Part shown: one piece after another, positions 1,248 to 1,871 of the stretch
Layout of the letters: every line of letters begins with the position of its first letter
Position numbering within the stretch: position 1 is the stretch's first letter
Assembly (NCBI GenBank): GCA_040757115.1
Contig: JBFLYA010000233.1
Span: 1 to 5,832, forward strand
Direction of reading: 5' to 3'
DNA from: a bacterium
Lineage (GTDB): Bacteria; UBA9089; CG2-30-40-21; SBAY01
Length of the DNA stretch: 5,832 nucleotides
Notes under the pieces: model-generated
Databases searched by the model: none
Told to the model about the DNA's origin: nothing
What the model saw: only the letters and a program-made list of their open reading frames with translations
Made by a program: the position numbers and the translations under genes

Positions 1248-1260
1248 TATTAACGAATTT

Positions 1261-1273
1261 TACCACCATGGTA
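1261..1273. promoter_or_regulatory. palindrome before the antitoxin gene, possible operator
   Basis: The perfect 8-base palindrome ACCATGGT (1265-1272) lies between the atpH stop and the antitoxin ribosome binding site, within a larger TACC...GGTA arrangement. Phd/YefM antitoxins repress their own operons by binding short palindromes near the promoter, so this is a reasonable candidate. A palindrome this short can easily occur by chance, and I see no convincing -35/-10 pair beside it. Confidence 0.2.
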
Positions 1274-1286
1274 GAGGAGGATTAAA

Positions 1287-1607
1287 ATGGCGGTATCACT
1301 AAAAAGAGGTAATCTGGCGAGAGATTTGGATATTCCGGAAACTATATCAGCCGCTACGGCAAGACAGATGTTTTACACCCTGCTTAAGAATGTAGAATAT
1401 TCAAATCGTAGCTATATCTTGACCAGGGCAGGAAAACCTGTAGCTCGGATAGTCAATCTTAATGAATGGAAAGAGATTATGACTACCTTAGAAATTATGG
1501 TTGAGCCAGAGCACCAGGCAGAGTTAGATAAGGCCATCAGAGAGGTAAAAGAAGGTAAAATTCATTCCTTTGAGGAGGTATTTGGCCATAAACAATCAAA
1601 TCTATAA
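1287..1607 (+). CDS. type II antitoxin, Phd/YefM family
   Basis: This is the predicted antitoxin of a two-gene type II module, neutralising the RelE/ParE-like toxin encoded immediately downstream. Such antitoxins also bind DNA and repress their own operon. The 106-residue protein has the Phd/YefM N-terminal fold at about residues 18-64: ETISAATARQMFYTLLKNV, then the strand pair SYILTRAGKPVARIV and the helix start NLNEWKEI. The acidic C-terminal part (about 70-100, ending SFEEVFG) fits the usually flexible toxin-binding region. About 17 residues precede the fold, slightly more than in many relatives. The ATG at 1287 has GAGGAGG at 1274-1280 with a 6-base spacer, which supports this start. The gene sits 39 bases after atpH, and its end overlaps the toxin gene. 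The family assignment is from motif recognition; the specific subfamily is not certain. Confidence 0.9.
   Translation: MAVSLKRGNLARDLDIPETISAATARQMFYTLLKNVEYSNRSYILTRAGKPVARIVNLNEWKEIMTTLEIMVEPEHQAELDKAIREVKEGKIHSFEEVFGHKQSNL
1572..1579 (+). promoter_or_regulatory. ribosome binding site of the toxin inside the antitoxin gene
   Basis: GAGGAGGT lies within the antitoxin codons for EEV (residues 96-98) and is the only strong ribosome binding site before the toxin. No in-frame ATG follows at a usable distance. The in-frame candidates are TTG at 1582, spaced closely, and ATA at 1588, spaced ideally (9 bases from GGAGG) but a very rare start codon. This embedded site supports translational coupling of toxin to antitoxin. 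Confidence 0.6.
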
Positions 1608-1857
1608 GATAGAGTTCTCCTCTTTAGCCAGAAATGATATAAAAAAAATTCCAGGAGAGATTAAGGATAGATTGGAGAATCATTTGATAGATTTATCGTT
1701 CAATCCTTATCAAGGTTATAAACTATTGGGCAAATATAAAGGAAAAATGGCTTATGATTTCAGTTTCAGATATAGAGTCATCTATGGTATTGATAAGAAA
1801 GAAAAGGTTTTAACAGTCTATGAAGTATGGCATAGACAGAAGGATTATAAGAAATAA
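1582..1857 (+). CDS. type II toxin, RelE/ParE superfamily
   Basis: This is the predicted toxin paired with the preceding antitoxin. RelE-type members cut mRNA in the ribosomal A site, whereas ParE-type members poison gyrase. Sequence alone does not settle which this is, though the basic, His/Arg/Tyr-containing end favours the RelE side. Counted from TTG at 1582 it is 91 residues, typical of the family. Visible features are the N-terminal strand YKIEFSSLARNDIKKI (8-23), the KLLGKYKGKMAYDF segment (47-60), the core RYRVIY strand (63-68) and the C-terminal VYEVWHRQKDY (79-89). His84, Arg85 and Tyr89 are candidate catalytic residues. Many relatives have an Arg in the strand before the YRVIY motif; here that stretch reads AYDFSF. 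The start is uncertain: TTG 1582 is chosen, TTG 1570 would put the ribosome binding site inside the gene, and ATA 1588 is possible. It overlaps the antitoxin by 26 bases and ends 14 bases before atpA. Confidence 0.87.
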   Translation: MAINNQIYKIEFSSLARNDIKKIPGEIKDRLENHLIDLSFNPYQGYKLLGKYKGKMAYDFSFRYRVIYGIDKKEKVLTVYEVWHRQKDYKK

Positions 1858-1871
1858 GGGGGAGATAAATT

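Follow-up and report, generated by a model that had tools for sequence, protein, structure and literature searches.

It has long been asked how toxin-antitoxin (TA) modules are kept in chromosomes, and whether the host or the module itself benefits. The question arises again in an ATP synthase operon in which a TA pair separates atpH from atpA. The window, which is the whole stretch of DNA analysed here, is a complete contig of 5,832 bp (G000:C233) from a draft genome of 4.3 Mb in 462 contigs. The gene order, all on the forward strand, is atpF (187-702), atpH (699-1247), a Phd/YefM antitoxin gene (1287-1607), a RelE/ParE toxin gene (1582-1857), atpA (1872-3428) and purL (3444-5633). Has the pair descended with the operon, did it arrive alone, or is it the position rather than the pair that is conserved?

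The Phd-RelE pair and its host genes

The two host genes are identified by their protein families, atpH as the ATP synthase delta subunit (PF00213, E 1e-44) and atpA as the alpha subunit (TIGR00962, 810 bits). A preliminary description of this DNA had placed a complete Phd/YefM and RelE/ParE pair between them, and Pfam matches over the curated cut-offs bear this out. The 106-aa antitoxin scores 44.4 bits against PF02604 (E 1.4e-11; cut-off 29.8) and also passes the cut-off of NCBIfam phd_fam (TIGR01552). The toxin scores 37.6 bits against PF05016 (E 3.3e-9; cut-off 23) and 25.1 against NCBIfam RelE_StbE, under the cut-off of 27.9. Its closest solved relatives by sequence in the PDB are the mRNA interferases RelG (Rv2866) and YoeB, and it retains the C-terminal H-R-x3-Y ending; this likeness and the kept ending make an RNase toxin likelier than a gyrase poison. 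The toxin is therefore most likely, judging from its sequence, an RNase of the RelE kind that is restrained by its antitoxin.

The antitoxin gene comes first and the toxin reading frame, open from a TTG at 1570 to 1857, overlaps it. The likely start of the toxin is the TTG at 1582, inside the antitoxin gene, with an ATA at 1588 as a possible alternative; the exact N-terminus is uncertain because there is no ATG nearby. Shine-Dalgarno-like stretches precede the antitoxin (AGGAGG, 1275-1280), the toxin (GAGGAGG, 1572-1578) and atpA (GGGGGAG, 1858-1864), and the toxin and atpA would thus have separate ribosome-binding sites. The type II modules RelBE/RelFG and YefM-YoeB have this same layout, in which the gene of a RelE-family toxin overlaps that of a preceding Phd/YefM antitoxin. 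Those modules are usually regarded as transcription units of their own, whereas the present pair lies within an essential operon and has no evident promoter.

The gaps of 39 nt to atpH (1248-1286) and 14 nt to atpA (1858-1871), the shared direction and the open frames throughout were confirmed on the sequence, and the absence of a terminator held as well, since no terminator-like site was found within the module. Promoter-like matches were no commoner than in shuffled sequences (9 found, 11.2 expected). Neither a promoter nor a terminator belonging to the module stood out above the shuffles. No operator stands out in the 39-nt gap, where the sole palindrome, ACCATGGT at 1265-1272, is an unremarkable 8 bp and, although not significant, a possible candidate operator. 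No known non-coding RNA was found in the window with Rfam. The module is probably co-transcribed with the atp genes, and the antitoxin would be made first. The toxin would be harmful when unrestrained, and its output may be coupled to ATP synthase transcription, as the preliminary description had proposed.

The preliminary description had also suggested that atpA and purL might come partly under antitoxin control. Coupling to purL would be possible for the window genome alone, because the match to its congener (L032:1-1551) ends about 5 nt past atpA. The gene purL lies 3' of atpA (gap 3429-3443) only in the window genome; in one relative (G002) yebC follows atpA. The atpG gene of the window genome is on a separate contig (G000:C58). 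Low-complexity, repeat-like sequence (caaaatgcaaatatcaaaattac and similar) is present at both ends of the window, at 60-120 and 5780-5832, and is the likely reason for the contig breaks there.

One gap, three unrelated pairs

A search with AtpH over 61 genomes gave three relatives that form, together with the window genome (G000), the family set. G001 is a congener, with an AtpH that is 98% identical, and G002 and G003 belong to a second genus of the same GTDB family. In each of the four genomes a TA pair occupies the atpH-atpA gap, and these pairs are of three unrelated kinds. In the three relatives the gap is ~680-740 nt long and the pair, co-directional in each, is unlike that of the window. 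G001 has a 77-aa antitoxin-like protein (a weak NCBIfam match, under cut-off) with a MazF/PemK toxin (PF02452, E 5e-30), while G002 and G003 have a nucleotidyltransferase (PF01909) with a HepT-like RNase (PF01934), which match NCBIfam MntA and HepT below the equivalog cut-offs. Outside the phylum, the gap is usually <60 nt.

The Phd-RelE pair itself is absent from this site in the other three genomes. Whether the arrangement is conserved by descent or unique, as had been asked, therefore has a divided answer: the position is conserved and its content is not, unrelated TA families having taken the place of one another. Descent of the window's pair with the operon was rejected, as it occurs in no sister genome and the content differs despite an AtpH that is 98% identical. 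The pair would have been acquired from outside. No close relative of the toxin was found in the 60 other genomes (best 38% identity), and searches of genome, viral, plasmid and phage collections, at the sensitivity used, gave neither relatives of the antitoxin nor a donor.

Since the window is the whole of a short contig in a 462-contig draft, a faulty assembly or binning might have brought these genes together. This is very unlikely, because precisely this gap is filled by another TA pair in the congener and the third pair is common to contigs of two separate metagenome-assembled genome (MAG) projects, SBAY01000165.1 (G003) and JASEHU010000039.1 (G002). The reading frames and ribosome-binding sites are also intact at both joints of the window.

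Comparison of the flanking genes gives clues to how the content was changed. Between G000 and G001, atpH has 21 mismatches, of which 4 are in the first 470 nt and 17 in the last 73 nt, on the side of the module (clustering p 4e-12). The 5' end of atpA is nearly identical in the two genomes, and the match resumes at 1866, within the 14-nt gap that would form the right edge of the exchanged segment. Fast evolution or relaxed constraint at the 3' end of atpH was rejected as the cause of the cluster, since between the genera this stretch is more conserved than the remainder of the gene (0.75-0.79 against 0.68-0.70). The cluster resembles the boundary of a segment that was imported with the module and the end of a diverged atpH, which makes it probable that the module was swapped by recombination. 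The mosaic edge is seen in this one genome pair.

G002 and G003 share their pair. Nucleotide identity between the two genomes is 98.0-98.6% for the module, 87.5% for atpH and 92.2% for atpA, and the four-fold sites that differ are 2 of 55 in the module against 93 of 418 in the tested atp genes (p 5e-4). The module is thus younger than its flanks, and its greater closeness at silent sites implies that the MntA-HepT pair was probably shared after the two lineages split. Both cases would fit homologous recombination anchored in atpH and atpA. Direct repeats spanning the joints do not exceed 7 nt. Transposition with target duplication or mobile-element ends was also considered and no sign of it was found; homologous exchange needs neither.

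TA modules in other operons

The atp operon of G002 has four TA or TA-like pairs. A nucleotidyltransferase-HEPN pair lies between two atpI-like genes, a Phd-ParE pair before atpB, a DUF4258/DUF2283 pair, only TA-like as its DUF4258 match is under cut-off, before atpF, and the MntA-HepT pair before atpA. In the same genome a HicA toxin gene and a small partner gene lie after yebC, and the nuo genes are interrupted by MntA/HepT between nuoI and nuoH, an MNT/HepT-like pair between nuoH and nuoJ, a RelE-type pair between nuoJ and nuoK and an MNT/HEPN pair between nuoE and nuoF. Several nuo gaps of G003 are likewise occupied. G000 and G001 both have an MNT pair between nuoI and nuoH and an MNT-HEPN fusion between rnfC and rnfD (the latter named by eye). 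All the modules seen in atp and nuo operons read in the direction of the operon.

A hand count of ORF lists, covering the retrieved contigs of the four genomes, gave 48 gaps in atp and nuo operons, of which 18 contain a TA or TA-like module, whereas none of the 93 gaps in ribosomal S10-spc and dcw clusters does (by Fisher's test p 3e-10, or p 9e-7 if the 18 represent 12 independent events, a rough estimate). The control operons are unmatched for expression and the window's gap is the discovery case, so little weight should be put on the exact p-values. In G002, 10 of 40 toxin matches (four Pfam families) are within or next to atp and nuo genes, which number ~23 and make up ~1% of the genome. 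An even spread of TA modules over all operons is not supported, as the S10-spc and dcw clusters are without recognised TA pairs. Other host operons of these genomes nevertheless contain many TA pairs. Co-directional ones lie at tilS-ftsH, kdsB-pyrG, rpsI-leuS, aroQ-pepP and archease-ispD, and before a trpD-like gene in both G000 and G001; these host genes were recognised by eye from the sequence and are unscored, whereas the nuo and rnfC genes were scored.

The positions of related modules differ between G002 and G003. The RelE-type pair between nuoJ and nuoK in G002 has a relative after nuoH in G003. There the toxin gene, in the nuo operon, appears to be divided between the ends of two contigs, and the end of a group II intron (Rfam RF00029, 57 bits) lies where it is broken; the region concerned is L282:12-98 and the final 420 nt of L270, taken on the reverse strand. 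The MNT/HEPN pair follows nuoE in G002 but precedes it in G003, where a copy of the beginning of nuoE lies ahead of the pair (L129:620-1966). The copy suggests duplication and partial loss, which would move a module across a gene. In G000 and G001, a two-gene pair with an AAA_21 protein, putatively of the AbiEii type, lies between nuoH and nuoJ (L267:3296-4951, L268:9044-10699).

Maintenance of the occupied gap

These observations incline us, with some reservation, to regard the atpH-atpA gap as a recurrently occupied TA slot in which modules are replaced rather than lost and are kept by addiction. Lying between essential genes, a module would be cheap to carry and hard to delete, because its removal would endanger the operon and expose the cell to poisoning by leftover toxin. 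Homologous recombination that uses atpH and atpA as anchor sequences would then put one module in the place of another. That the site makes the module hard to lose had been proposed in the preliminary description, and the idea fits a gap that is occupied in all four family members examined. Addiction may be the maintaining force, though a very similar map would be expected under neutral tolerance.

Neutral tolerance is accordingly the main rival. It holds that the energy-operon gaps of this order accept any small insertion; TA modules, non-coding elements and other small genes would arrive and drift there, with neither addiction nor a regulatory role. We consider it rather unlikely. Non-coding insertions in the same operon indicate that insertion as such is tolerated: G001 has one of ~300 bp between atpF and atpH (L032:4337-4650), and in the order f2 genomes the atpH-atpA gaps are 96-306 nt long without TA genes, one of them (G005, L035 gap 5492-5785) with an inverted-repeat element (accacagagacgcagagacacagag...). 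The RelE-type toxin gene of G003 that is broken by a group II intron also points this way. Such indifference to content is harder to reconcile with a TA pair in the same gap of all four family genomes, or with S10-spc and dcw clusters that are free of TA pairs though they include gaps of several hundred nt. If the module had instead been recruited for a function, a growth-arresting RNase whose amount scales with ATP synthase transcription would act as a brake when energy supply changes. The modules inside atp, nuo and rnf operons are co-directional and tightly spaced, which favours this view, but a role specific to one toxin is hard to square with a gap that holds three unrelated toxin families, and TA pairs are also found in non-energy operons such as that before trpD; we consider functional coupling improbable.

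Toxins of the RelE, MazF and MntA-HepT types can act in phage defence. The pairs might thus be abortive-infection modules whose turnover is driven by phage pressure, with core genes serving as anchors for recombination. Fast replacement between near-identical genomes and the putative AbiEii-kind AAA_21 protein in nuo would suit a defence slot, but neither an integrase nor a defence island is present at the site, and this explanation appears, if anything, slightly less probable still than functional coupling. Exchange hotspots flanked by core genes, such as defence-island slots (for example PMC12629846), likewise have conserved flanks and exchangeable cargo; they differ from the present case, in which the cargo is a pair of small genes, the gap is normally tiny and lies within an essential operon, and neither an integrase nor an island is present.

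Operons into which a single TA module or restriction-modification system has been inserted are known already (PMC2701414, PMC10273834). In Thermus thermophilus HB8, an MNT-HEPN module lies in a lysine biosynthesis operon and is missing in HB27 (Makarova et al. 2009, PMC2701414). That case resembles the present one in having a TA module within a metabolic operon that is missing in a close relative, but it concerns the presence or absence of one module, whereas here one ATP synthase gap holds three unrelated families in four genomes. Restriction-modification systems are also inserted in operons, one having replaced another in a his cluster, and it has been proposed that their post-segregational killing enforces the maintenance of the operon (Kojima and Kobayashi 2023, PMC10273834). 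They share with the present case an addictive gene pair in a host operon and replacement at the same place; the gene families and hosts are different, and the operons concerned are not those of ATP synthase or complex I. In the literature searched, no report was found of an atp or nuo operon that contains TA pairs, which is weak evidence of absence, nor of repeated occupation and swapping in energy operons.

As a gap filled in every family member examined contains unrelated toxins, position can be separated from content, which argues that location and addiction, rather than a toxin-specific function, can keep modules in place. Tentatively, the atp, nuo and Rnf operons of this uncultured lineage, which encode its chemiosmotic machinery, may be preferred TA exchange slots that are refilled by recombination, such that some growth-arresting toxin gene, whichever it is, would be tied physically, and probably transcriptionally, to energy conservation. 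The same flanks with a different toxin provide a natural comparison for co-transcription with ATP synthase and complex I. For annotators there is a caution, in that TA genes in energy operons can be real rather than assembly errors.

A conserved ORF of ~70 aa resembling a small membrane protein, an unusual addition to the ribosomal S10 operon, lies between rplV and rpsC in both families of the order, at L114:1903-2115(-), L115:13132-13344(-), L116:10128-10346(+), L117:9331-9549(-), L118:13012-13275(-) and L132:10317-10529(-). A 375-aa ATPase-like ORF lies between murG and murC in G000 and G001 (L277:730-1857, L278:9058-10185) and is absent there from G002, G003 and G004.
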